Part shown: piece by piece, positions 2,263-21,882 of the stretch
Layout of the letters: each line of letters opens with the position of its first letter
Numbering within the stretch: the stretch's first letter is position 1
From: a virus
IMG/VR virus record: IMGVR_UViG_3300021962_000455
Location: 1 to 29,699 of that record
Reading direction: 5' to 3' (one strand)
DNA: 29,699 bases
Made by a program: the position numbers and the translations under genes
The notes under the pieces: generated by a model
Seen by the model: only the letters and a program-made list of their open reading frames with translations
Told to the model about the DNA's origin: nothing
Database searches by the model: none

Positions 2263-3495
2263 ATGATACAGACACTTAAAACCTACATCAAAGAACAGAA
2301 GAACACCCACATGGAACATGTGGAAGATGAAATCTTCAATAATGGTGTTGAAGGAACTCGCAAAGCAATCAATTTTTTGCGTGATTTGCGAGACATGCTT
2401 GCAGGTCATTCAAAATCAAAAATTGTATCTACTGTAAAATGGGATGGCGCTCCTGCGATTTTTGCAGGCATTGACCCTACAGATGGCAAATTCTTTATCG
2501 CCAAAAAAGGCGTATTCAATAAAAATCCTAAAGTATACAAAACTAATGCAGACATTGATGCCGACACTTCTGGCGATTTGAATGCCAAGTTTAAAGTAGC
2601 ACTATCAGAATTCAAAAAACTAGGCATCAAATCCGGTGTCTATCAAGGTGATTTGATGTTTACCAACGACAAAAAAATCGAAACTATCGATGGTCAAAAA
2701 TACATCACCTTTCATCCAAACACAATTGTCTATGCTATTCCAGCAGATACCCCTCTTGCAAAGAAAATTCAAAGTGCAAAAATCGGTGTTGTTTGGCATA
2801 CAGTCTATGAAGGAAGCACCTTTGAAACAATGTCAGCATCATTTGGACAGTCTATTGTTTCAAAATTCAATTCAGTTTCTAGCATCTGGATGTGTGATGC
2901 CACATATCAGAATGTCTCAGGAACCGCAACATTCACAAAAGCAGAAACAGACGAAATTACATCAAGTTTGTCAGAAATTGGTCGTATTTTTCAGTCTGTG
3001 CCTGCCGATGTTATAAATAACATAAGAGATAATGAGAGACTAAAAGCATTGGTGAAAGAATATAACAATTCTATCATCAAAGCAGGTAAAACAATTACCA
3101 ATACTAAGTCTCACACAACAGGTTTGTTTCATTATATTCATGACAAGTTTCAATCTGAAATTGACAAGTTGAAAAGTGAAAAAGGTAAGACTTCAAAAAC
3201 GCAAGAGCGTGATGAGGTTCTAACTTACTTCACAAAGCACAGTCAAAGTGACATTGCTAAAGTGTTCGACCTTATGAACATGTTGGCAAATGCAAAACAA
3301 GTGATTATTAATAAAATGAACTTGGCAGGTCATATCCCGACATTCTTGAAAACGAAGAATGGATTCAGAGTTACAAATGTTGAGGGTTTTGTTGCTATCG
3401 ATGAATTGACTGGCGGTGCCGTCAAACTAGTTGATAGAATGGAATTTAGTTATGCGAACTTTTCGCCTGATGTGATTAAAGGTTGGCAACGATAA
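2263..3495 (+). CDS. Predicted ATP-dependent ligase-like nucleotidyltransferase
   Basis: This 410-residue protein has an ordered set of motifs resembling the covalent nucleotidyltransferase (DNA/RNA ligase) fold. These are motif I KWDGAPAI with candidate adenylylated Lys59, a motif Ia-like KKGVF at 81-85, a motif III-like YQGDLMF at 127-133, KIGVVWHTVYEG at 173-184 as a possible IIIa region, a motif IV-like VEGFVAI at 373-379, and a motif V-like AVKLVDR with Lys388. A helical, Lys-rich insert fills about 200-355. I believe the family is catalogued in T4-like phages as a domain of unknown function (DUF6267, from memory). Substrate is unknown. The N-terminus MIQTLKTYIKEQKN has an IKE at 9-11 like a prohead-protease site. 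It is the first gene after the promoter at 2213. Confidence 0.75.
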   Translation: MIQTLKTYIKEQKNTHMEHVEDEIFNNGVEGTRKAINFLRDLRDMLAGHSKSKIVSTVKWDGAPAIFAGIDPTDGKFFIAKKGVFNKNPKVYKTNADIDADTSGDLNAKFKVALSEFKKLGIKSGVYQGDLMFTNDKKIETIDGQKYITFHPNTIVYAIPADTPLAKKIQSAKIGVVWHTVYEGSTFETMSASFGQSIVSKFNSVSSIWMCDATYQNVSGTATFTKAETDEITSSLSEIGRIFQSVPADVINNIRDNERLKALVKEYNNSIIKAGKTITNTKSHTTGLFHYIHDKFQSEIDKLKSEKGKTSKTQERDEVLTYFTKHSQSDIAKVFDLMNMLANAKQVIINKMNLAGHIPTFLKTKNGFRVTNVEGFVAIDELTGGAVKLVDRMEFSYANFSPDVIKGWQR

Positions 3496-3520
3496 GCAAC
3501 CAATGGATAACGGAGATTAA

Positions 3521-5239
3521 ATGAAAAATTTTAAAAGTTTTGTAGCACAGATTCAAGAAGAAAAATCCAAATCGGTTGTATTTGCTTTTGGCAGATTCAA
3601 TCCCGTAACTATTGGTCATCAAAAACTTTTTGAAAAAGTCGCATCAATTGGTTCTTCAAAAGACCATCATGTTGTCTTTGCGTCACATTCGCACGACAAT
3701 AAAAAGAATCCCCTAAATCCAAACGACAAATTAAAATTCTTGCGTAAAGCATTTCCAAAGAACAATGTGGAATTGACTAGTCGCACAATGCCTAGCACAC
3801 TTCAAATCATTGGTCATCTATACGATAAAGGTTATCGTGACATTACAATGGTTGCTGGTAGTGACAGAATTTCAGAATTCAAAGCACTTGTTAAAAAGTA
3901 TAACGGTGTAAAATCTACACACGGTTTCTATGATATTAAATTTGATGTTGTATCATCTGGTGACCGTGATGCTGATTCTGAAGATGCCTCTGGTGCATCT
4001 GGAACCAACATGCGTATGTATGCAAGAAATGATGATTTCACATCATTCAGAAAATATACACCTGCATCATTAAGCGATGCAGACGCTAAAAAAATATTTA
4101 ATCTAGTTAAAGGAAATTTAACTGAATTAGCATCACAAGAAAATTTAATTTTTCCTAGTGAACAAATTAGAGAAAAATTTATTTGTGGTGAAATTTTAAA
4201 TCCTGGAGATACTGTTCGTGATATCTATGAAGATATTGAATATGAAGTTGTATCTAGAGGAACAAATTTTGTCAAAGTAAAAGACTTCAATGGTAAGGTC
4301 CATAAAAAATGGGTCTCAGATTTAATTGAAGCGAAAGATGAATCAATTGAAGAAGGTTCTACTCCAGTCTATGATACCTACATCAAAGGTGGTTCTACCT
4401 ATGGTGATATTGTTAAGAAATATGGCGCCAATAAAGTAAAAGAAATTATTAGAAATCTAACTAAAGAAAGAGATTCTCTAAGAAAACATTCTGGTGAGTG
4501 GGCAGGTCCTGCACATCTAAAAGACCATGATTTTGCTATTCGTGGACTAAAGAAAAGCATAGGCGAAGAAGTAGAAGAACTAGATGAAGGTCGCCCATCA
4601 CAAAGACATCCCTTAGAAGGACATGAGTATCACAAAAAGACCGATGCTGAATTAGAGTATATTGCTAAAGACGCACACAAAGCGGCAGAGGCAATGAAAA
4701 GTCATAACACAAATGCAGAAAATAAATATCGTGACCAAGCAAACGATTCCGCAACTGTTCGTTATTGGAGAAAAAAGAATGGTATGCCCGATTGGTATAA
4801 AAAGAAATATGGACATATCAAAGAAAATCGCAATCGCTATAAAGAGTTGTTTGGTGAAGAAGAAGAGCGTTGTGCGTTCATTTCTAGAAAACAAATTGAA
4901 GACCTAGAAAAATTTGCAGATAACTTGCTTGATAGATTTGATATTGATATTGAATTCACAAAACATTTTAGTGAGCGCATGACAGATTCTCGCAATGTGC
5001 CATGTATTAAAGTTAATGAATTGCAACAATTATTTAAAAAGATTGCTAGAGAACAAGGCAATAAAGTTAAGCGTTTAAAAGGCAATGAAGGCGTATTAAA
5101 AGATTTACAATATAATTTGAATTTACCTATTGTCGTAAACTATAAGAATGATGAGTTTGAAGTTGTAATGAAAACAATCATGCGTAAAGCAAATTTTAAA
5201 ACATCTAATCAAACTGTAACTTACGAGTCCAAAGAATGA
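3521..5239 (+). CDS. TxGH nucleotidyltransferase fused to several phage modules
   Basis: Residues 18-195 form a cytidylyltransferase/NMNAT-type nucleotidyltransferase. It has GRFNPVTIGH at 24-33 (the (H/T)xGH nucleotide-binding motif), a central VAGSDR strand near 111, and ASGTNMR at 159-165, matching the ISSTxxR-type motif. About 222-270 is a small beta-rich module (GDTVRDIYEDIEYEVVSRG, then KKWVSDL). Residues 285-350 and 366-432 are charged helical modules seen in other marine phage proteins. Residues 478-562 form a C-terminal domain with KHFSERMTDSRN and KTIMRKANFKTS, whose role I do not know. The N-terminus MKNFKSFVAQIQEE resembles the T4 capsid-targeting peptide, with IQE at 11-13. An EEVEELDE linker lies at 349-356. 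The gene overlaps the next by 4 bases. The reaction could involve NAD, CDP- or another nucleotide donor; the substrate is not readable. Confidence 0.8.
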   Translation: MKNFKSFVAQIQEEKSKSVVFAFGRFNPVTIGHQKLFEKVASIGSSKDHHVVFASHSHDNKKNPLNPNDKLKFLRKAFPKNNVELTSRTMPSTLQIIGHLYDKGYRDITMVAGSDRISEFKALVKKYNGVKSTHGFYDIKFDVVSSGDRDADSEDASGASGTNMRMYARNDDFTSFRKYTPASLSDADAKKIFNLVKGNLTELASQENLIFPSEQIREKFICGEILNPGDTVRDIYEDIEYEVVSRGTNFVKVKDFNGKVHKKWVSDLIEAKDESIEEGSTPVYDTYIKGGSTYGDIVKKYGANKVKEIIRNLTKERDSLRKHSGEWAGPAHLKDHDFAIRGLKKSIGEEVEELDEGRPSQRHPLEGHEYHKKTDAELEYIAKDAHKAAEAMKSHNTNAENKYRDQANDSATVRYWRKKNGMPDWYKKKYGHIKENRNRYKELFGEEEERCAFISRKQIEDLEKFADNLLDRFDIDIEFTKHFSERMTDSRNVPCIKVNELQQLFKKIAREQGNKVKRLKGNEGVLKDLQYNLNLPIVVNYKNDEFEVVMKTIMRKANFKTSNQTVTYESKE

Positions 5240-7269
5240 CCGAAATTTCAAAACAATTAGACGAAGGCGTTTACGATAAAGGAATTTTCAAGGCAGTATT
5301 TTTTGCTGGTGGTCCTGGTTCAGGTAAAGACTTTGTTCTTCACAAAACTGTTGATGGGTTAGGTTTTCAAGAAATCAATTCAGATACAGCATTAGAATTT
5401 TTGATGGACAAAAATAATCTAGATAAGAAGATGCCCGATAGTGAAAAAGCAGAGCGTGAAGTTGTTCGTGCTAAAGCAAAAAACATTACAAAAATGCGTG
5501 AGACACTTGCATTACAAGGTCGCAAAGGAATTATTGTTAACGGAACTGGTGATGACCCCGCAAAGATTAAAAAAATTAAAGAGCGTTTAGAAGAATTGGG
5601 TTATGACACTTCTATGATTATGGTGAATACCCGTGATGAAGTTTCAAAGCAAAGAAATATTGAGCGAGGTGAGCGAGGCGGCAGAAGTGTTCCAGAAGAC
5701 ATTCGCAAAGAGAAATGGGATTCGGCGCAAGCAGCCAAAGCAGAATTTGCAAAAATTTTTGGTGACAATTATGTTGAATATGATAATTCAGATGACTTGC
5801 GTAAAGCGCCACCAGAATTAGTTAAAGCAAAAGAAGATGAACTGTTAGGTATTTTTAAAGGTATGCAGAAATTTGTATCTGCAAAACCAGGAACAACAAA
5901 AGCATCTGATTGGATTGCAAAAGAGTTAGAGAAAAAAGATACTTCTAAAGCAGAACCAACAGAACCAGAATCAAAAGATGGTGGTGAAGAACCAACTAAA
6001 GATGCAAAGGCCTCACAAGAACCTCAAGATTCAGAGGCCGCAAGAGAGGCAAAAAAACTTGGATTAATTTATCAAGGTTTTGGTCGATATGGAGTTCAAG
6101 GAAAAACAACGCATCGTGTTGTGGGTGGTCAATTAAAACAATTACAAAAAGAGGAAGTTGAAATGACAGACGATGAACTCAACGAAAGACCAATGACAGA
6201 TGATGAAATGAAAAAGCGTGAAGAAATTGTCAAGTCTATGAAAAAAGATGGCGGCATCGCAGACTTCAAAAAGCGTTACGGTGACCGTTGGAAAGAAGTA
6301 ATGTATGCTACAGCAAACAAACAAGCAATGAAAGAAGATTTGCGTAATTGGTTTGACCCAAAACATCCAGAAGGTGGTTGGAAAAGAGTAAACTCTTCAG
6401 GTAAAGTTGTGGGTGACTGTGCAAGAGAACCTGGTGAGCCAAAACCAAAATGCATGTCTAATTCAATGAGAGCATCTCTCTCTAAAAAAGAAAAGATTAG
6501 CGCAGTAAGAAGAAAAAGAAAAGAAGACCCAAATCCAGAGAGAAAGGGTGAACCAATAAATGTTAACGCAAAGGTTGAAGAAGATATGAAAAAATTAAAT
6601 ACTTTTGAACAATGGTCACAAAAATATAAAGACAGCATTGATTGTAACAATCCAAAAGGATTTAGTCAGAAAGCACATTGTGCAGGTAAAGATAAAAATG
6701 AAGAAGTCGAACAGATTGATGAAAAAAATGTTCCAACAAATCCAAAACTTTGGGCCAGAGCGATTGCACTAGCAAAATCTAAATTTGATGTTTATCCCTC
6801 TGCATATGCAAATGGATGGGCTGCTAAGTGGTATAAAGGCGAAGGTGGTGGATGGAAATCTGTTGCTGAAGAATTAACAGATAAACAAAAGAAACATTTA
6901 GATGTTGATAATGACCTTGATATTGATAAAAAAGATTTTGAAAAATTGAGAGCGAAAAAAGAAGAGTTAACACCTAAACAAAAAAAGATTGACTTCAATA
7001 AGAATGGTAAAGTTGATGGTCAAGATTTAGCAAAGTTAAGAGAAGAAGATGAGTATGATGATTCAGGTATGGCATATGATGAAATGGAATCAATCAAAGC
7101 AAAAGCAGAAGAATTGTGTTCACAGTTAAACAAGATGAAAGGACAACAGTTACCTTCTTGGTTAGCAAGCAAAATCACAAGAGCAGAAGAAAGCATTAGC
7201 ACAATTTATGATTACATGATGTTTGGTATGGAAGATGAAGAGCAAGATGACTATCAAGGAGAAGAGTAA
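5236..7269 (+). CDS. P-loop kinase / zeta-toxin-like protein with multiple fused modules and EF-hand-like loops
   Basis: Residues 17-215 resemble a small-molecule or zeta-toxin-type P-loop kinase. The Walker A is GGPGSGKD (25-32), NGTGDD at about 102-107 may be the second catalytic strand, and an Arg-rich lid (RNIERGERGGR) lies near 140-150. After an acidic linker (232-268) come a GLIYQGFGRYG module (276-300), a KKDGGIADFKKRYGDRWKEVMYATA module (338-360, split here by spacing), NWFDPKHPEGGWKRV with KPKCMSNSM and AVRRKRK (370-430, DUF6321-like from memory), KGFSQKAHCAGK (474-485), and FDVYPSAYANGWAAKWYK (517-534, DUF5872-like from memory). DVDNDLDIDKKD (556-567) and DFNKNGKVDGQD (586-597) look like calcium-binding loops. 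A C-terminal helix WLASKITRAEESI follows. QLDE (residues 7-10) and EEVEQIDE (489-496) resemble prohead-protease sites. The substrate is unknown. Confidence 0.8.
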   Translation: MTEISKQLDEGVYDKGIFKAVFFAGGPGSGKDFVLHKTVDGLGFQEINSDTALEFLMDKNNLDKKMPDSEKAEREVVRAKAKNITKMRETLALQGRKGIIVNGTGDDPAKIKKIKERLEELGYDTSMIMVNTRDEVSKQRNIERGERGGRSVPEDIRKEKWDSAQAAKAEFAKIFGDNYVEYDNSDDLRKAPPELVKAKEDELLGIFKGMQKFVSAKPGTTKASDWIAKELEKKDTSKAEPTEPESKDGGEEPTKDAKASQEPQDSEAAREAKKLGLIYQGFGRYGVQGKTTHRVVGGQLKQLQKEEVEMTDDELNERPMTDDEMKKREEIVKSMKKDGGIADFKKRYGDRWKEVMYATANKQAMKEDLRNWFDPKHPEGGWKRVNSSGKVVGDCAREPGEPKPKCMSNSMRASLSKKEKISAVRRKRKEDPNPERKGEPINVNAKVEEDMKKLNTFEQWSQKYKDSIDCNNPKGFSQKAHCAGKDKNEEVEQIDEKNVPTNPKLWARAIALAKSKFDVYPSAYANGWAAKWYKGEGGGWKSVAEELTDKQKKHLDVDNDLDIDKKDFEKLRAKKEELTPKQKKIDFNKNGKVDGQDLAKLREEDEYDDSGMAYDEMESIKAKAEELCSQLNKMKGQQLPSWLASKITRAEESISTIYDYMMFGMEDEEQDDYQGEE

Positions 7270-8141
7270 TGTCTGATTTCAAAAAGTTAATGGAGCAAAC
7301 TTCAAGAACATCTTTAGAAGAGAGTGTTCCTGGTTATTTTGAATTGAAAGATAAGATTGCTAAATTAGAGAAATCTGGCATTCGTGTTAGTGATGTTAAG
7401 CATTCATCTTCACAAGCATCATATGTAACTGTTGACGGTGAAGGCTATAAAAGAAAATATATTTTTACTTCTTCTGGAACTAAAGTTGAAAACATGGGGC
7501 AAGTAAAAGTTAAAGACGATGATGAAGATGAACCTAAAGCAAAATCAGGTCGTGGTCGCCCAAAGAAAGTTAAAGAAGATTTTAACATCGATGAAGAATT
7601 AGATGGTGATAACATTAGTGAAGAAAACGAAGAATTATCTGATGATTCTGAATTAGCACAATTAGTAAAAGATGCAGGTATTGATATCAAAGATGTTTTA
7701 TCAATCAGCGATACTGATTTTGAAGCAGAGATTGAGGCAATTGATGATTTCGAAGATATCGAAGACCTTTATGATGATGAAGAATTTGAACAAGAAGAAG
7801 GTGATATTAGCGAAGTGTTAAGCACACAAGCGAGAATGAGAAAGGCACAGCAAGCAAGACGCAACAAGTCTAAACTTCAGTCTCGCAGAAAGTTGCAATT
7901 AAAGCGCACATCAACACCACAGCGTTTAGACATGAAGGCAAGACGCCAAGCAATTCGTTTGATACATAAAAGAATTTTAAAAACTAGAGACTATTCAAAA
8001 TTGCCTCCAGGAGAAAAGGTTCGTGTTGATAAGATTGTTCAAAGATTAAGACCAGTTATTAATCGTATGGTTCCTAAACTAAGACCAAAGATTAAGAGTG
8101 CGGAACAACAAAGAATTCGAAATGCAAATAAACCAAAATGA
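7269..8141 (+). CDS. AT-hook-like protein with acidic centre and basic C-terminus
   Basis: The 290-residue protein has three zones. The N-terminal 80 residues start MSDFKKLMEQTSRTSLEE and contain a small beta region around VTVDGEGYKRKYIF. An AT-hook-like GRGRPKK at 94-100 is followed by a strongly acidic stretch (104-180). The C-terminal third (185-290) is very basic and helical, with RKAQQARRNK, KARRQAIRLIHKRIL and PPGEKVRVDKIVQRLRP. The basic C-terminal zone is familiar from marine T4-like phage proteins, but I know no function for it. DNA binding is likely from composition. LEE at 16-18 would fit a prohead-protease cut. The ATG sits on the TAATG of the previous stop, so the two genes are translationally coupled. 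Confidence 0.7.
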   Translation: MSDFKKLMEQTSRTSLEESVPGYFELKDKIAKLEKSGIRVSDVKHSSSQASYVTVDGEGYKRKYIFTSSGTKVENMGQVKVKDDDEDEPKAKSGRGRPKKVKEDFNIDEELDGDNISEENEELSDDSELAQLVKDAGIDIKDVLSISDTDFEAEIEAIDDFEDIEDLYDDEEFEQEEGDISEVLSTQARMRKAQQARRNKSKLQSRRKLQLKRTSTPQRLDMKARRQAIRLIHKRILKTRDYSKLPPGEKVRVDKIVQRLRPVINRMVPKLRPKIKSAEQQRIRNANKPK

Positions 8142-8695
8142 AAAAATTTAAAGACCACCTATACGAAGAGGCAATTCTAAATGCTATTGCATGGCATATG
8201 GAAAATGCACCACTACACGAAAGTATTTTTAGAGTAGGTTCAGAAAATTATTTCAAATTATGGCGCACCGCAAGAGCATTATATAATGAAGGTGCAATCG
8301 CTTATAATGAAAAATGCACAGATACATATCTATTAGAAGAAACAGATATTGGTGAAATTGCAGAATATGAAGGTCATCATGTTCCTCTTGATTGCCCCAT
8401 GATTGAAGAAGAAGACGAAAAAGATATTGAGTTAGGTAAACCAAAGCGTGGTGGTCCTAAAAAGTTTTTTGTTTATGTTAAAGACCCATCAACAGGTAAT
8501 GTCAAGAAAGTTACTTTTGGTGATACTACAGGGTTGAGTGTTAAACTTAATGACCCCGAAGCAAGAAAAAGTTTTGCGGCGAGACACCAATGTTCAACAC
8601 AAAAAGATAGAACAAGTGCCGCCTATTGGTCATGCAATTTACCTCGTTATGCTAAATCATTAGGACTATCTGGTGGCGGAAATTTCTATTGGTAA
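8138..8695 (+). CDS. Conserved T4-like phage protein of unknown function
   Basis: This 185-residue protein has an N-terminal helical part starting MKKFKDHLYEEAIL, an acidic middle (EEEDEKDIE near 90-97) and a well-defined C-terminal domain from about 104. That domain contains KKFFVYVKDPSTGNVKKVTF, DPEARKSFAARHQCS, SAAYWSCNLPRY and a GGGNFYW end. The two cysteines (152 and 166) and His150 could bind a metal. I have the impression that the domain is common in marine T4-like phages, but its function is unknown to me. LYE at 8-10 fits the capsid-targeting pattern of the preceding genes. It overlaps the previous gene by 4 bases, and the next gene starts 23 bases before its end. Confidence 0.75.
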   Translation: MKKFKDHLYEEAILNAIAWHMENAPLHESIFRVGSENYFKLWRTARALYNEGAIAYNEKCTDTYLLEETDIGEIAEYEGHHVPLDCPMIEEEDEKDIELGKPKRGGPKKFFVYVKDPSTGNVKKVTFGDTTGLSVKLNDPEARKSFAARHQCSTQKDRTSAAYWSCNLPRYAKSLGLSGGGNFYW

Positions 8696-8990
8696 ACCAT
8701 ATCAAGAGTTACTTGGTGATGGTTATAAGATAAGAAACTTTTTTGATAATGTGGATGATGCTGAACTAGTGTGGCATCGTGACAGAGAAAAAAGAATTGT
8801 CGAAGTCATTGTGTGTGACAGTTGGCAATTGCAGATGGATAATGAACTTCCTTTTGTAATGCAAGAGGGTTGTGAATACGAAATACCTGCGATGGTTTAT
8901 CATAGAATTATCAAAGGTAAAGGCATATTAAAATTAAAAATAAAGGAAGATAAATGTCATTCGAATTCGATTTTACAGAAGAAAAACTAG
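8673..8990 (+). CDS. Small conserved beta-rich (cupin-like) phage protein
   Basis: The 105-residue frame is read from a GTG at 8673, which has TAGGA (8661-8665) seven bases upstream. The protein contains AELVWHRDREKRIVEV, SWQLQMDNELPF and an EYEIPAMVYHRIIKG segment, an alternating beta pattern with two His residues that recalls a small cupin or jelly-roll fold. The function is unknown. It overlaps the preceding gene by 23 bases and the endolysin start by 37 bases. The last residues (KCHSNSILQKKN) are dictated by the shared bases. Confidence 0.7.
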   Translation: MAEISIGKPYQELLGDGYKIRNFFDNVDDAELVWHRDREKRIVEVIVCDSWQLQMDNELPFVMQEGCEYEIPAMVYHRIIKGKGILKLKIKEDKCHSNSILQKKN

Positions 8991-9586
8991 CAAAAATTAT
9001 TCCTAATGCCGCCTATGGCGTCAATGTTTGGTTTAACGAATTAACTGAGTTACTACCAGTTTTTGAAATTACTACAGTTGGTCGTGTTGCCGCTTTTATT
9101 GCACAGACAGCGCACGAATCAGGTGGGTATAGAGCATTGGCAGAAAATTTAAACTATTCAGCAGACGGTTTAAATAAAATTTTTCCTAAGTATTTTGCAA
9201 ATGCTGGTCGTGATGCCAATCAATATGCAAGACAACCAGAAAAAATTGCTAATGTAGTTTATGCAAATCGCATGGGTAATGGAACTACTGAATCTGGTGA
9301 CGGTTGGAGATATTGCGGTAGAGGTTTGCTACAATTAACAGGTAAACAAAACTATTCTAATTTTGCACAATATGCTGGCATTGCTGTTGAAGAAGCACCT
9401 GGTTATATTGAGACACCAAGAGGTGCAGTTCATTCAGCATGCTGGTTCTGGTTTTCAAATGACTTAAATACTTTCGCCGATGCAGGAGATTTTGTCGGTA
9501 TGACAAAGCGCATCAATGGCGGAACAATTGGACTTGATGACCGCATCAAGCATTACAACGAGGCTGTTCATATTTTTGGAGCATAA
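8954..9586 (+). CDS. Endolysin, glycoside hydrolase family 19 (chitinase-like)
   Basis: The 210-residue protein matches phage GH19 lysins that cut the glycan strands of peptidoglycan. The diagnostic AAFIAQTAHESGGY segment carries the likely catalytic Glu55. A second conserved block, ESGDGWRYCGRGLLQLTG, follows near 115-132 and then KQNYSNFAQYAG. The C-terminal ACWFWFSNDL and KRINGGTIGLDDR segments are also typical. There is no signal peptide, so export would need a holin. The ATG at 8954 has a strong AAGGAAGA site and lies 37 bases inside the preceding gene. The spanin pair lies 5 kb away, at 14710. Confidence 0.92.
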   Translation: MSFEFDFTEEKLAKIIPNAAYGVNVWFNELTELLPVFEITTVGRVAAFIAQTAHESGGYRALAENLNYSADGLNKIFPKYFANAGRDANQYARQPEKIANVVYANRMGNGTTESGDGWRYCGRGLLQLTGKQNYSNFAQYAGIAVEEAPGYIETPRGAVHSACWFWFSNDLNTFADAGDFVGMTKRINGGTIGLDDRIKHYNEAVHIFGA

Positions 9587-9587
9587 A

Positions 9588-9833
9588 ATGAATCTTAAAA
9601 AGTTTTTAGTAGGAATTAATGTTGTCATTTGGTCTTTTGTTGGTTATCAGGTTGCATATGCAGAAACAAAACCTGCGCCTAAAGTAGATTGCACACAAAA
9701 GAAAAATGAAGGCAAGATTGAGTGTAAAGCACCACCAAAGTCTGATGCTAAACCAGAAATTAAAAAACCTGAAAAGGTTCAAAGAAAAGCGCCTGCTGAT
9801 GTAAAGAAAAAAGCAGACGCCAATAACAAATAA
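9588..9833 (+). CDS. Small secreted Lys/Pro-rich protein
   Basis: The gene starts at the ATG at 9588, one base after the endolysin stop. An upstream in-frame ATG at 9516 lies inside the endolysin and is less likely. The 81-residue product begins MNLKKFLVGINVVIW and has a signal peptide with probable cleavage after VAYA (about residue 24). The mature part is short and dominated by Lys, Pro and Ala, with two Cys residues flanking KKNEGKIE. There is no lipobox, so it is not an o-spanin. Its position after the endolysin suggests a periplasmic or envelope role, but no family is recognised. Confidence 0.7.
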   Translation: MNLKKFLVGINVVIWSFVGYQVAYAETKPAPKVDCTQKKNEGKIECKAPPKSDAKPEIKKPEKVQRKAPADVKKKADANNK

Positions 9834-9842
9834 GGAAACATA

Positions 9843-10388
9843 ATGTCACAATTGCAGAGCATTCTAGAAGAGTTGCAAAATAAACAGAAAATTGAGCAAG
9901 GTAGATTGCCTAAGATTTTTTGTGACATGGACCAAGTTCTTGTCAATTTTATGTTGGGTGCTCAAGAAATATTGGGTGTTCCTTTTAATGAATATCCAGG
10001 AGAGAAAGAAGAGAAGTGGCAGAAACTAAAACAAGTAAATGGTTTTTGGGCAAATCTTCCAATCATGCCTGATGGTATGTTATTGTGGAAATATATTCGT
10101 GATTTTGAACCTGCTATTCTTTCAACACCATCACGCAGAATGCCTACATGTAAAGTAGAAAAGATTTTGTGGTTAAGAACACATTTGCGTTTTGTTGGTG
10201 AAACTCATATTGTAAGAAGACAAGATAAAAAGAAATATGCTGTTACTGATGACGGATATCCCAACTTGCTAATAGATGATTATAAGAAAAACATTCTAGA
10301 ATGGGAAACAGCAGGTGGGATTGGTATTCTTCATAAAGATACATTATCAACAATTAGAAAATTAAAGAATTTGGGATACACTAAATAA
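9843..10388 (+). CDS. HAD-superfamily phosphatase, deoxyribonucleotidase-like
   Basis: The 181-residue protein has the HAD motif I strand KIFCDMDQVLVNF with nucleophile Asp28 and acid/base Asp30. The usual DxDGV glycine is replaced by Gln31. Motif II is probably AILSTPSRR near 110-118, and motif IV is LLIDDYKKNI near 160, followed by AGGIGILH. This layout resembles the 5'(3')-deoxyribonucleotidase (NT5C-like) group, which dephosphorylates nucleotides. The first 20 residues (MSQLQSILEELQNKQKIEQG) precede the HAD core and contain LEE, so a processing peptide is conceivable. A second HAD protein is at 26723. The AAGGAAAC site precedes the ATG. Substrate is inferred from family only. Confidence 0.85.
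   Translation: MSQLQSILEELQNKQKIEQGRLPKIFCDMDQVLVNFMLGAQEILGVPFNEYPGEKEEKWQKLKQVNGFWANLPIMPDGMLLWKYIRDFEPAILSTPSRRMPTCKVEKILWLRTHLRFVGETHIVRRQDKKKYAVTDDGYPNLLIDDYKKNILEWETAGGIGILHKDTLSTIRKLKNLGYTK
10381..10387 (+). promoter_or_regulatory. Possible late promoter upstream of the structural gene
   Basis: CTAAATA at 10381-10387 overlaps the end of the HAD gene and matches the last six bases of the T4 late -10 box TATAAATA. A start near 10395 would leave a leader of about 65 bases containing the hairpin ATGTTA-8 bases-TAACAT (about 10411-10430). The motif is short and AT-rich, so chance is a real alternative. There is no -35 match. Confidence 0.3.
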
Positions 10389-10460: not shown

Positions 10461-10907
10461 ATGGCCGACCAAAAAATATCACAATTAGTTGCCGCTACGG
10501 CAGCCGCAGCCGCTGATTTACTAAGCATTGTTCAAGGCGGAACAAATAAAAAATTAACATTCGCAAACTTGTTTAACAATATCGATGGTGATGTTGCATT
10601 AACTGGTGTTTTATCATTAAAAGGAACACCACAGACATTGACAGCAAGTGGTGCAGTTAGTTTGACCACAGCAATTACTCTTTTCACTCCAGCAGCTTCT
10701 CTTGCCGCAACATTGGCAGACGCAACAAAAGAAGGTCAAGTTAAAGTTCTTGTTCAAACAAATGCAACAGCAAACACAGTAGTAACACCAACAACACCAT
10801 CAGGTTTTACTACACTAACATTCAATGCGGCTGGTGATACAGCAACATTAATTTGGACAAACAGTAAGTGGAATATTCTATCTGTAAATAGCGTAGCAAT
10901 TGCATAA
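10461..10907 (+). CDS. Probable virion structural protein (fibre/decoration type)
   Basis: The 148-residue product is rich in Ala, Thr, Ser and Val and almost free of Cys, Arg and Trp, as in secreted-style beta structural proteins. It begins MADQKISQLVAATAAAAADL, the 'kISqL...a..aDl' opening common to phage tail-fibre and baseplate-associated proteins, followed by IVQGGTNKKLTFANLF. The C-terminal half (AATLADATKEGQVKVLV, then GDTATLIWTNSKWNIL) resembles a small fibre-like beta domain. It has the best ribosome site in the window (AGGAGAAAAAAATG) and a 72-base leader with a possible late promoter at 10381, consistent with high late expression. Confidence 0.7.
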   Translation: MADQKISQLVAATAAAAADLLSIVQGGTNKKLTFANLFNNIDGDVALTGVLSLKGTPQTLTASGAVSLTTAITLFTPAASLAATLADATKEGQVKVLVQTNATANTVVTPTTPSGFTTLTFNAAGDTATLIWTNSKWNILSVNSVAIA

Positions 10908-10916
10908 TTGAAATAA

Positions 10917-11279
10917 ATGGAATTTGAATTGAACGAGAGAAACTTTCTTCTTTACGCAATGCATAATTATGAAAACCCGCAATGTGTAAATATAGAAGAG
11001 TTTCATGAAGATATACAGAGGTTAAAATATTTAAAAAGATTATTTAAAAGATTTGAAGAAAAAAGCGAAATCAAAGAGCGTTTAATTTTAAATCATTTAG
11101 TAGTCTTAGGTAATGTTTATAAACCTGAAACATTGAGAAAGATTCTATTCTTTAAGATAGAAAAGGAGCACTGGCCGATGTTAAAAACATTTCTTTGCTT
11201 TTTGAATCTTATGAGTGTAGAAGACAATGAAAATATTCCTTTACATGTAGAAACAATTAAAACTTTAAGAAATATCTAA
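10917..11279 (+). CDS. Conserved T4-like phage protein, unknown function
   Basis: The 120-residue helical protein contains ERNFLLYAMHNYENPQCVN, KYLKRLFKRFEEKSEIKERLI, LNHLVVLGNVYKPETLRKILFF and a C-terminal LKTFLCFLNLM segment. I recognise the pattern as a family recurring in marine T4-like phages, often next to a homologue of the following gene, but I know of no function. The ATG at 10917 has little ribosome-site sequence, so translation may depend on the preceding structural gene, which ends nine bases earlier. Only one base separates its stop from the next ATG. Confidence 0.75.
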   Translation: MEFELNERNFLLYAMHNYENPQCVNIEEFHEDIQRLKYLKRLFKRFEEKSEIKERLILNHLVVLGNVYKPETLRKILFFKIEKEHWPMLKTFLCFLNLMSVEDNENIPLHVETIKTLRNI

Positions 11280-11280
11280 T

Positions 11281-12027
11281 ATGGGTAGACTGTTTGACCA
11301 ACTGTTAACATTCAGAATCCTTAAACTTCTTACAACGAAGTTTGAGGATACTCCTGCATTTAAGGCAGGTTTAATAGATGCAACAGGTAAACCACTCAAA
11401 GATATTAATACATTAACAAGTGCCGAGCAGATTGTTTATACTGCATTAGACAGATTAGTTTTTAGATTAAAAAGATTATTAACTAAATATTATCCTCAGT
11501 CAAAACAAAGATTATCATCCTTTGCAACAGCATTATATTTAATTAAAGAACATTCTGATTATTCTGATTTGCTTGATGATGAATTTTTAGAAGATGAGAT
11601 TGAAGAATTAATGATAGATGACGATATTCTTATTGAAGAGATGTTAGATGTTGGTTTATACATAAACAATTTAGGATTTTTATCACCATCTAATTTTTTA
11701 GTTGAGAATGGTGTTCCAGCAAACGCAGTTGGTTCTGGTGGTGTTGATTTGGAACCAAAAGCAAGTGCTGGACTATTAAGAAGAAAAGTAAAAGTCTTTA
11801 ATGTTTCAAATAACTTGTATTCTAAATTTATTGCAGGTAAAAAGAAATATACTCGTTGGTCAAATTATATTGATATGACTAATGAAGGTGATAAAGAACT
11901 CTATGATTATGCTAGAAAAAATCATCGTGCTGTTATAATTTTACAAAATTCAGATAACGGCTTAAAAAAAGCAATCAGATTCAATCGCTACGGTGGTGGG
12001 TCTTGGCATAAAATAGGAAAAAATTAA
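11281..12027 (+). CDS. Conserved marine T4-like phage protein, unknown function
   Basis: The 248-residue protein begins MGRLFDQLLTFRILKLLTT, a start familiar from marine T4-like phages. Residues 1-90 are helical and basic (VYTALDRLVFRLKRLLTKYY). Residues 98-130 are very acidic (LLDDEFLEDEIEELMIDDD). The C-terminal third has a Gly-rich turn (GSGGVDLEP) and a basic beta region (KKKYTRWSNYIDM). The function is unknown to me; a head or internal role is possible given the neighbouring structural gene. The gene runs directly into the next ATG without a gap. Confidence 0.7.
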   Translation: MGRLFDQLLTFRILKLLTTKFEDTPAFKAGLIDATGKPLKDINTLTSAEQIVYTALDRLVFRLKRLLTKYYPQSKQRLSSFATALYLIKEHSDYSDLLDDEFLEDEIEELMIDDDILIEEMLDVGLYINNLGFLSPSNFLVENGVPANAVGSGGVDLEPKASAGLLRRKVKVFNVSNNLYSKFIAGKKKYTRWSNYIDMTNEGDKELYDYARKNHRAVIILQNSDNGLKKAIRFNRYGGGSWHKIGKN

Positions 12028-12492
12028 ATGTCAATAGAGACTGAAGTTGAATTACTGAAGAAAGATATTGCTCAAGTAAATAATATTATGGGCAAGTTGG
12101 ATACCGCTATTGAGAAAATGAGTGATGTTGCTTTAGGTGTAAGACAAATGCTTGCTGTTCATGAAGCAAGATTGGCACAAGGTGATGCAATTCACAAAGA
12201 ACTTTTTGATGCCATCGAAGACCGAAGAAAAGAGACAATGGATAGATATGAAAATCTACATGTCAAAATTAGTCAAGTTAAAAAAGAGTTAGAGATGGAA
12301 AACGAAAAGATAGAAAAAGATATTCTAAAAGAATTAAAAGAGATGCGTCATGACCAGGAAGCACAACATAATGCCATGCTTTCTCGTATTGGTGATTTAG
12401 AAAATTGGAAGTGGAAAGTCGTTGGACTTGCCGCAGGCATTGCTTTTATCTTCAGTAACTTCTCAACACTAACCAAAATTCTCGGTGGTTAA
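12028..12492 (+). CDS. Coiled-coil protein with one C-terminal membrane segment
   Basis: Residues 1-125 of this 154-residue protein form an almost continuous heptad-type helix (TEVELLKKDIAQVNNIMGK through KKELEMENEKIEKDILKEL). A tryptophan-flanked membrane segment follows at about 128-149 (WKWKVVGLAAGIAFIFSNF). This layout resembles XhlA/hemolysin-type and other phage membrane-tethered coiled-coil proteins, sometimes linked to lysis. It could be a holin accessory or membrane anchor. It is the last gene before the promoter at 12496 that serves the primase. Confidence 0.7.
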   Translation: MSIETEVELLKKDIAQVNNIMGKLDTAIEKMSDVALGVRQMLAVHEARLAQGDAIHKELFDAIEDRRKETMDRYENLHVKISQVKKELEMENEKIEKDILKELKEMRHDQEAQHNAMLSRIGDLENWKWKVVGLAAGIAFIFSNFSTLTKILGG

Positions 12493-12495
12493 CTC

Positions 12496-12524
12496 TTGAC
12501 ATTTAATTAAGTCTATTGTATAGT
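12496..12524 (+). promoter_or_regulatory. sigma70-type promoter for primase
   Basis: TTGACA (12496-12501), exactly 17 bp, then TATAGT (12519-12524). A transcript starting near 12531 would have a leader of about 22 bases before the ATG at 12553. It lies in the 60-base gap after the coiled-coil membrane gene. Confidence 0.85.
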
Positions 12525-12552
12525 TGTGTAATCTCTATACAATGGATATGCT

Positions 12553-13548
12553 ATGAGTTTATATGTTGATATCAAATACCTAAATGAAATCTCTTTTCGC
12601 TTACAGAAGTTTGCGAAGAAAGGTTCATATCTATTTAATTTCCGTTGCCCATATTGCGGAGATAGTTCCAAAAGTAAAAATAAAGCAAGAGGTTATGTTT
12701 ACAAAGTAAAAGGTACCATGCTTTTTAAATGCCATAACTGTGGCAAAGGAACATCATTTGGGGCGCTTTTAAAATATCTAGATACAGAGAAGTATAAACA
12801 ATACATCATGGAGCGTTTCACCAACGGAGAAACGAAGAGAACAATGCATGATGAACCGGTATTCGATATACCGAAGTATGAACCAAAGAAGACTTTCGCA
12901 GGTCTAAAGAGTATTGCCGCACTTAAAGATGACCATCCCGCTAAACAATATGTGGTCAATAGGCAGATTCCTGAAGAGTATCACGCCAAACTCTTCTTTG
13001 CACCAAAATTCTTTTCTTGGTGTAACACACAGATTCCAAATAAGTTTCCAGAAATCAAGGAAGAACATCCTCGATTGATTATTCCTTTTTATGATGATGA
13101 GGGTCAAATCTTTGCGTTTCAAGGTAGAGCATTCGGTAACGAGATGCCTAAATATATCACACTTAAACTTGATACAACAAGAGATAAGGTTTATGGTTTA
13201 GACACCGTGGATTTTACTAAAACTGTATTTGTTGTTGAAGGACCGATTGATTCAATGTTTCTAAATAATTCAATAGCAATGGCGGGTGCAGATATGTCAC
13301 CTAGTGTCAATGCTGATTATATTTTTGTTTATGACAATGAACCACGCAATAAAGAAATTGTTCGTAGCATGGAGAAAGTTATAGACGAAGGTTATGCAAT
13401 ATGTATTTGGCCAGAAACAGTTGAACAAAAAGATATTAATGATATGATTCTTAACGGCAAAACAAAACAACAAGTTGCAAGTCTAATTCTTGAAAACTCC
13501 TATAAAAATTTAGAAGCAAAAATGAAAATCTCAAGCTGGAAAAAATGA
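12553..13548 (+). CDS. 61: DNA primase, T4 gp61 type
   Basis: This primase makes the RNA primers for lagging-strand synthesis with the helicase at 77. The 331-residue length fits T4 gp61. The N-terminal zinc-binding domain has CPYC (32-35) and CHNC (60-63), with GTSFGALLKYL after it. The central region contains PRLIIPFYDDEGQIFAFQGRA as two strands of the catalytic core. The Toprim domain shows VFVVEGPIDSMF with the catalytic Glu, then IFVYDNEPRN as the acidic metal-binding strand and KDINDMIL near the end. The gene has its own promoter at 12496. It overlaps the following gene by 4 bases. Confidence 0.95.
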   Translation: MSLYVDIKYLNEISFRLQKFAKKGSYLFNFRCPYCGDSSKSKNKARGYVYKVKGTMLFKCHNCGKGTSFGALLKYLDTEKYKQYIMERFTNGETKRTMHDEPVFDIPKYEPKKTFAGLKSIAALKDDHPAKQYVVNRQIPEEYHAKLFFAPKFFSWCNTQIPNKFPEIKEEHPRLIIPFYDDEGQIFAFQGRAFGNEMPKYITLKLDTTRDKVYGLDTVDFTKTVFVVEGPIDSMFLNNSIAMAGADMSPSVNADYIFVYDNEPRNKEIVRSMEKVIDEGYAICIWPETVEQKDINDMILNGKTKQQVASLILENSYKNLEAKMKISSWKK

Positions 13549-21208: not shown

Positions 21209-21445
21209 ATGACATTAGATTATTATAATTTGAAAACTATTGTTGAATTAGCAAAAGAAATTGAGAGTGAAGACCCAATAGATTGGTCTAATTTAAATGT
21301 AGATAAAAACTTAGCATATAACATCATAGCATCACAAGTCATAGAGTTGATGAAGCAGAGTGACGATATGATTAAAACAACAATGATAGTTAAATTGATT
21401 GTTGAAAATTTTGTGTTACATTTGAAGTTACAGAGATTGCAATGA
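21209..21445 (+). CDS. Small conserved helical phage protein
   Basis: The 78-residue, mostly helical protein begins MTLDYYNLKTIVELAKEIE. It contains DPIDWSNLNVDKNLAYNIIA, then a hydrophobic helix MIKTTMIVKLIVENFVLHLKL. It resembles small phage proteins of unknown function. It overlaps the dCMP deaminase gene by 4 bases (ATGA), so the two are translationally coupled. Confidence 0.7.
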   Translation: MTLDYYNLKTIVELAKEIESEDPIDWSNLNVDKNLAYNIIASQVIELMKQSDDMIKTTMIVKLIVENFVLHLKLQRLQ

Positions 21446-21882
21446 AAGATAAAATGATTCATGCTCATTTGAATGTTGCTAATGAGTATTCTAAACTAAG
21501 TCATGCAGTAAGATTAAAAGTTGGATGTGTGATTGTAAAAGAAGATAGAATTATTTCTATCGGATACAACGGAACACCATCAGGTTGGGATAATGTTTGT
21601 GAAGAAGTTATAGAACAACATGAAGATGGTGGTCAAGTTTTGAAAACAAAACCTGAGGTGCTACATGCTGAACAAAATGCAATTGCTAAATTGGCGAAGT
21701 CTAATGATTCTGGTCTTGGTGCTGATATGTTTATCACTCACGCCCCATGTGTTGATTGTGCTAAACTTATTCTTCAGTCTGGCATTAATAATGTATTCTA
21801 TAGAAGTGCCTACAGAGATGATGCGGGAATTAAATTTTTGGAAAAAGGAAAAGTAAAGGTGATTCATGTCAAAGATTCATGA
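21442..21882 (+). CDS. dCMP deaminase
   Basis: The 146-residue zinc enzyme converts dCMP to dUMP, the substrate of ThyX. Motif HAEQNAI (His and catalytic Glu) is near 74-80 and PCVDC, with the two zinc cysteines, near 103-107. KVGCVIVKEDRIISIGYNGTPSGWDN (split over 26-51) is the typical dCMP-deaminase nucleotide-binding region. The length is short compared with T4 (193 residues). The ATG at 21442 overlaps the upstream gene by 4 bases, and the zinc-ribbon gene begins inside its last 17 bases. Confidence 0.93.
   Translation: MKDKMIHAHLNVANEYSKLSHAVRLKVGCVIVKEDRIISIGYNGTPSGWDNVCEEVIEQHEDGGQVLKTKPEVLHAEQNAIAKLAKSNDSGLGADMFITHAPCVDCAKLILQSGINNVFYRSAYRDDAGIKFLEKGKVKVIHVKDS

Follow-up and report, generated by a model that had tools for sequence, protein, structure and literature searches.

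The locus described here raises the question of whether a phage marks a set of neighbouring genes for loading into its head by means of a common type of N-terminal peptide. It lies in IMG/VR virus record IMGVR_UViG_3300021962_000455, a 29.7-kb fragment (29,699 nucleotides, all of it analysed and hereafter called the window) of a T4-like marine myovirus whose relatives include Methylophilales phage Melnitz, phage C48C1 and Pelagibacter phage HTVC008M. Five consecutive open reading frames (ORFs), all on the + strand, occupy positions 2263-3495, 3521-5239, 5236-7269, 7269-8141 and 8138-8695 (genes 1 to 5). An earlier note on this DNA had read them as a possible packaged enzyme set, because each protein begins with a peptide that resembles the T4 capsid-targeting peptides and holds an [LI]xE site within 18 residues. 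We consider it likely that these genes form a T4-type capsid-targeting cassette with new cargo, namely ligase-like, NMNAT-like and kinase enzymes. The case for T4-type targeting is strong for genes 1, 2 and 5, where sequence, phylogenetic and published proteomic evidence agree and where the proposal of the earlier note is supported by the leader profile, by virion homologues of gene 2 and by natural leaderless counterparts. Genes 3 and 4 are plausible cargo, each individually weak. For the window phage itself, we infer that the proteins are packaged, cleaved and injected.

The N-termini of genes 1 to 5 read MIQTLKTYIKE, MKNFKSFVAQIQE, MTEISKQLDE, MSDFKKLMEQTSRTSLEE and MKKFKDHLYE, and three of them carry an F4-K5 pair; these sequences, their coordinates and the F-K pairs were all as previously described. 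An [LI]xE at 18 residues or fewer is present in all five proteins and in 8 of the 38 other window genes. From the window counts, the chance that five given genes all hold the motif is approximately 0.0013, although these five were chosen post hoc, and with 13 of 43 window genes carrying it, [LI]xE alone is too common and was dropped as evidence. We built a stricter rule from the published genetics of the T4 capsid targeting sequence (CTS), in which targeting depends on residues 4 and 7 and processing on residues 8 and 10 (PMC9026906): a hydrophobic or aromatic residue at positions 4 and 7, plus the processing site. Four of the five cassette genes pass, versus 4 of the 38 others (Fisher 0.0026). 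Genes 1 (shifted by one residue), 2 and 5 (with His at residue 7) display the hydrophobic positions, gene 4 does so partly, and gene 3, whose residue 7 is Gln, fails. Decisive support comes from the conservation of the leader across homologues.

This conservation is clearest for gene 1 (2263..3495, +), which encodes a DUF6267 protein (PF19782, E=8.5e-109) with a ligase/nucleotidyltransferase-like KWDG motif. Its predicted capsid-targeting peptide, MIQTLKTYIKE (2263..2295, +), would be cleaved at IKE/QKNTHMEH (slashes mark predicted cuts) and is conserved in homologues. Of 58 non-redundant DUF6267 proteins in which the core is recognisable, 57 have the leader [FL]xx[YF][IL]xE, ending 1-5 residues ahead of the domain core, with the logo M-x-x-[FL]-x-x-[YF]-[IL]-x-E. 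P3 is only I or L (V and M were also permitted), P4 is Y or F in 50/57 and P7 is F or L in 53/57. The strict pattern is observed in 53 of 57 leaders, compared to at most 4 of 57 after shuffling, in a family whose members are related, hence not fully independent, and whose intervening leader positions vary freely.

The DUF6267 family also supplies a natural counterpart. Leaderless cyanophage members start with MAKNTHLEH, MSKNTHLEH or MKNTHLEH, that is, at the domain core, so that a cut after the E of the window protein would yield nearly the untagged enzyme. Two such leaderless proteins, S-SZBM1_141 and S-CREM2 gp87, are absent from the reported virion proteomes of both phages. Regarding function, residues K59, D61, G62, E374, G375 and K388 are invariant in 29 homologues and correspond to KxDG motif I, EG motif IV and Lys motif V of the covalent nucleotidyltransferase (ligase) superfamily, and gene 1 is predicted to encode a ligase-like enzyme. 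In the AlphaFold model the overall predicted local distance difference test score is 86, and that of residues 1-10 is 42. The best PDB matches in a fold search were DNA ligases and an RNA editing ligase, all weak (prob 0.5-0.87, E=0.01-0.2, TM ~0.2), and a sequence search of the PDB with DUF6267 gave no relevant match. The family is present in hundreds of marine phage genomes and is uncharacterised; we found no mention of it in the open-access literature that was searched.

A position-specific scoring matrix (PSSM) was trained only on the DUF6267 leaders of metagenomic relatives, the window and Melnitz being left out. Most start codons in the genomes scored were picked by a simple script, and individual N-termini may thus be wrong; those of S-CREM2 are the record's own. 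Among the 43 window genes the matrix ranks gene 1 first, gene 5 third, gene 2 fourth, gene 4 eleventh and gene 3 seventeenth. On 100 kb of T4, IPIII and IPII take ranks 1-2 and IPI rank 4 of 150 ORFs. In cyanophage S-CREM2, whose virion protein list is published (PMC10665884), ranks 1-7 of 187 are all non-structural virion proteins detected by mass spectrometry (MS; hypergeometric P=8e-7, class size 28/187), namely the cytidylyltransferase gp154, the SAM hydrolase gp6, gp13, the APH-like kinase gp14, gp136, gp209 (annotated as an endolysin) and gp15. A rank-sum over all S-CREM2 proteins is weaker (p=0.038), as expected if only some of the virion-associated set is tagged. Control matrices made from the first residues of other families recovered 0-4 of the top seven, mostly 0-2, and rule-based tests matched 5-7 of 28 non-structural virion proteins versus 2-5 of 135 others (p ~0.001-0.002). 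S-CREM2 structural proteins, including those of tail and baseplate, gave 0/24 matches under rules A-C. The Cas9-like gp12 was not counted as a match, its LRFASFMAEA beginning at residue 17, after a CTG codon.

The five best-scoring of the 197 Melnitz proteins all come from the gene set of the cassette: DUF6267, the product of the preceding gene, a protein of 131 aa, a basic one of 130 aa and a fusion of NMNAT with gene 5. Across 41 families from homologous loci, strict CTS rates above 50% are seen in just three: DUF6267 (83%), gene 5 (58%) and the 131-aa Melnitz family (86%); the next family reaches 12%. The last of the three, a 131-147-aa family with N-termini such as MKNFKNHIAEE (L001:20008-20403; Melnitz record 21306-21701), thus has the highest rate of CTS-like starts.

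Gene 2 (3521..5239, +) links the leader to virion proteomics. It encodes a cytidylyltransferase/NMNAT-like protein (PF01467, E=5e-7; phrog_3041, phrog_395, phrog_455 and phrog_23027) with a C-terminal phrog_23027 domain. The [TH]xGH and SxTxxR motifs are present (FGRFNPVTIGH and SGTNMR), from which an enzyme is predicted. Its predicted targeting peptide, MKNFKSFVAQIQE/E (3521..3559, +), displays F4, F7 and a delayed site, and the homology of the protein to gp154 of the S-CREM2 virion (E=3e-25) begins at residue 1. Homologues have been reported in virions of S-SM1 (PMC3037559), S-SZBM1 (PMC9146016) and S-CREM2 (PMC10665884), with leaders MKKFSAFLNE/A, MRFRQFIIE/A and MKNFSSFLTE/A, respectively, and virion cytidylyltransferases have also been described for S-SCSM1 and S-CBWM1 (PMC9602691). 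The NMNAT family as a whole is found both with and without the leader.

Gene 5 (8138..8695, +) encodes a phrog_7595 domain protein (E=9e-14) whose predicted targeting peptide, MKKFKDHLYE/E (8138..8167, +), belongs to the family with the third highest strict CTS rate of the 41. It shares 54% identity with the end of the NMNAT fusion in Melnitz, being joined to the C-terminus of an NMNAT-like enzyme in Melnitz-type phages; a PDB fold search with it gave no usable match. Further fusions join domains of the cassette, such as phrog_455 (DUF6267 with NMNAT) and phrog_23027 (the gene 4 module with the C-terminus of gene 2). In the window each of these domains has a gene and a leader to itself, whereas the Melnitz fusion of NMNAT and gene 5 is headed by a single one.

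Gene 3 (5236..7269, +) is a zeta-toxin/AAA_33-type P-loop protein (PF06414, E=1.2e-14; PF13671, E=2.9e-10) with a long modular tail. A kinase is predicted from its Walker A sequence, GGPGSGKD, and PDB adenylate kinases match at E=2e-6. In parts, gene 3 matches two virion proteins of S-CREM2, gp160 (E=4e-15) and gp14 (E=5e-4), its tail holding short modules that recur in virion proteins of that phage. Its predicted leader, MTEISKQLDE/GVYD (5236..5265, +), has weak targeting residues and a conserved processing site, the corresponding sequences being LQE/GVYD in Melnitz, LEE/GVND in L037, LKE/GLQD in L086 and LKE/GLYD in HTVC008M. In Melnitz the homologue lies 50 kb away and begins MKTFAELQE/GVYD. 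Residues 264-303 of gene 3 form a module of about 40 residues, LGLxYxGFGxY..GKxTHRxxGGQL, that is shared with the S-CREM2 virion proteins gp12 and gp14 and also occurs right behind the leader of the S-SM1 virion cytidylyltransferase; it is possibly a packaging or DNA-binding module.

In gene 4 (7269..8141, +) an acidic linker precedes a helical module of strongly basic character (approximately residues 175-290; phrog_23027, E=2e-11, residues 164-288). A possible leader, MSDFKKLME/QTSRTSLEE/ (7269..7322, +), holds F4, L7 and two alternative LxE sites, LME and LEE; in the sole close relative these read LME and LSE. Melnitz and C48C1 encode a similar basic module as a gene of its own, immediately after a leader, and in gene 4 the module is preceded by an internal ISE. 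Full CTS status was rejected for the leaders of genes 3 and 4, which are kept only as weak, the PSSM giving no support. Internal [LI]xE motifs also occur in acidic linkers between modules of genes 2-4 (EEVEELDE/GRPSQ, EEVEQIDE/KNVPT and EGDISE/VLSTQ), and their placement suggests that the prohead protease may release modules from these proteins as from polyproteins.

Several observations weigh against the cassette reading. The PSSM ranks of genes 3 and 4 are poor, and rank 2 in the window falls to a small signal-peptide-like gene (9588-9833, MNLKKFLVGINVVIW), likely a false positive that marks the limit of the profile. S-SZBM1_191 has a perfect leader, yet is absent from the 30 reported virion proteins of that phage. 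NMNAT is leaderless in lineages G001 and G002 and in P-HM2, as is DUF6267 in cyanophages, and packaging is thus not universal. The authors of the S-CREM2 study caution that abundant proteins may co-purify with virions (PMC10665884). Finally, the 29.7-kb fragment is devoid of capsid genes, and the virion data come from other phages.

Three other explanations have to be set against this evidence. The simplest is chance: N-termini rich in E, K and hydrophobic residues often yield [LI]xE, the five neighbours were picked after the fact, 13 of 43 window genes carry the motif and the PSSM scores of genes 3 and 4 are low. However, chance does not account for a strict pattern seen in 53 DUF6267 leaders and in at most 4 of 57 shuffled ones, nor for rates of 0-12% in other families of the same loci, nor for a profile that recovers both the T4 internal proteins and the virion cargo of S-CREM2, and we regard it as highly improbable. 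The leaders could also be tags for assembly into tail, baseplate or neck, which would make the proteins minor structural parts rather than injected head cargo. Whole-virion MS gives no location, and the virion proteins gp209 and gp137 also score in the S-CREM2 ranking; nonetheless the pattern agrees at residues 4, 7, 8 and 10 with the T4 head CTS as defined by experiment, none of the 24 S-CREM2 structural proteins matched, and the cargo is enzymatic, all of which makes this explanation quite unlikely.

It is also conceivable that the proteins are ordinary intracellular enzymes of early or middle infection, encoded near replication genes, with leaders that serve expression or complex formation, and that their detection in virions reflects carry-over, as raised by the S-CREM2 authors. 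The cassette does come after a DnaB-like helicase gene, which is followed by a 250-aa gene and then by gene 1; the 250-aa gene has no CTS-like leader. A sigma70-like site (TTGACA-17-TACACT, 2213-2241) precedes gene 1 by about 20 bases; sites of this kind are not enriched in the region when compared to shuffles. No T4-type late promoter lies directly upstream: this candidate was rejected, the one TATAAATA in the window being located within gene 1 and the motif being rarer than expected by chance. Carry-over, however, leaves unexplained why the detected non-structural proteins, and not others, share a leader, and why the leaderless DUF6267 proteins of S-CREM2 and S-SZBM1 were not detected. We therefore hold an intracellular role to be unlikely as well.

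Under the favoured reading of a capsid-targeting cassette, enzymes or DNA-binding proteins with an N-terminal leader of 9-18 residues would be encoded by genes 1, 2 and 5, and probably also by genes 3 and 4 and the gene at 9843-10388. Docking of the protein into the scaffold core of the prohead would depend on leader residues 4 and 7 (F/Y/L), and a gp21-family protease would cut after [LI]xE and leave the mature enzyme free inside the head. DNA would then be packaged around the proteins, which would be delivered with the genome at infection and may act in NAD and nucleic-acid-end metabolism of the new host. A gp21-family protease (Peptidase_S77, E=7e-44 to 4e-24) and gp23 are each encoded in 7/8 long relatives. 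In two relatives, L190 (G001 46604) and L204 (G002 144523), the protease is itself second in the CTS ranking, with MKLITEITEGLQVITEE, in agreement with a suggested role of gp21 propeptides in directing the protease to the prohead.

The packaged set probably extends beyond five genes, as judged from leaders of the same type. A probable sixth member (9843..10388, +) is a HAD 5'-nucleotidase-like protein of the NT5C family (PF06941, E=2e-5; PSSM rank 5/43) whose leader, MSQLQSILEE, fits the T4 CTS rule; its homologues occur both with a leader (MKHLVELTKIEE/AELPQIYCDMD) and without (MNNGLPQIYCDMD). Further Melnitz genes share the leader type. The gene just before DUF6267 (352-361 aa) starts with MQGFKTFLSE/A in Melnitz (L001:10905-11990) and with MLSFTGYSNLSE/A in HTVC008M (L219:3191-4249), and is a probable cargo gene in both phages; its place in the window is taken by the 250-aa gene.

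Related arrangements were observed in other phages. The virion-detected SAM hydrolase gp6 and APH-like kinase gp14 of S-CREM2 carry perfect leaders, and gp6, gp12 and gp14 (L167:3837-5081, 7704-10313 and 10579-12846) are candidates for injected counter-defence enzymes comparable to T4 IPI. The S-CREM2 virion protein gp160 (L168:28342-29235) holds, besides modules common to gene 3, a stretch just behind the predicted cleavage site that resembles a copy of the major capsid protein (GATGFTGAAAPEGPVAGYDPLM versus GADGFTGAAAPGGPNAGFDPVM). In Agrobacterium phage Atu_ph07, AUZ94865 (L218:2275-4611) places a gene 3-type kinase behind a domain that shows an ADP-ribosyltransferase-like YRGM...RSANT pattern and starts with MKWNDLNE; two of its neighbours start with MRWEQLTE and MRWEQLNE. 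It is the 53rd coding sequence (CDS) and lies inside a cluster rich in virion proteins (CDS 31-76).

The mechanism proposed is of the known T4 kind; what is new, to the extent that this could be checked, is the cargo set and the phage group. T4 IPI, IPII and IPIII likewise have a 10-residue leader in which positions 4 and 7 are hydrophobic and which holds an [IL]xE site, and gene 2 shares F4, F7 and the delayed site with IPI. However, the T4 internal proteins are small and basic, whereas the window cargo consists of large enzymes that hold conserved catalytic motifs, and of multi-module proteins, encoded in marine Kyanoviridae-like phages and devoid of similarity to the internal proteins in their mature parts. 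The T4 ADP-ribosyltransferase Alt is also packaged, bears a short leader (MELITELFDE) that is cleaved off, and acts immediately upon injection; the enzymes of the cassette are of other classes, and it includes no Alt homologue. The MS-detected virion cytidylyltransferases of S-SM1, S-CREM2, S-SZBM1, S-SCSM1 and S-CBWM1 are homologous to gene 2, and the first three carry the same leader, but the respective papers draw no link to a targeting sequence, and the window enzyme has tagged neighbours. In the open-access literature that was searched we found no link between capsid targeting sequences and cyanophage cargo, PMC9026906 just citing a cyanophage paper. In phiKZ and SPN3US many internal proteins are also trimmed by a gp21-like protease and ejected; these phages belong to another group, and no common cargo was seen here. 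A scan with a defence-system library gave 0 matches.

Virion enzymes of marine T4-like phages have repeatedly been found without an explanation of how they are loaded, and the leader accounts for their presence by the T4 capsid-targeting rule. It also allows cargo to be predicted by a sequence test that needs only the genome, and gives DUF6267 a likely place of action. A more speculative reading, which we view as doubtful, is that of an injected repair kit, in which the DUF6267 ligase-like protein, the end-kinase-like gene 3 product and the HAD phosphatase would repair and seal breaks in RNA or DNA, the NMNAT-like enzyme would restore NAD, and the longer members, as polyproteins, would be divided into separate packaged modules by cuts at internal [LI]xE sites. 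If this were true, head-loaded enzymes would be active ahead of all phage gene expression and would counter host nucleases or NAD-depleting defences. Natural tagged and untagged pairs of the same enzyme make what phages inject besides DNA directly testable.

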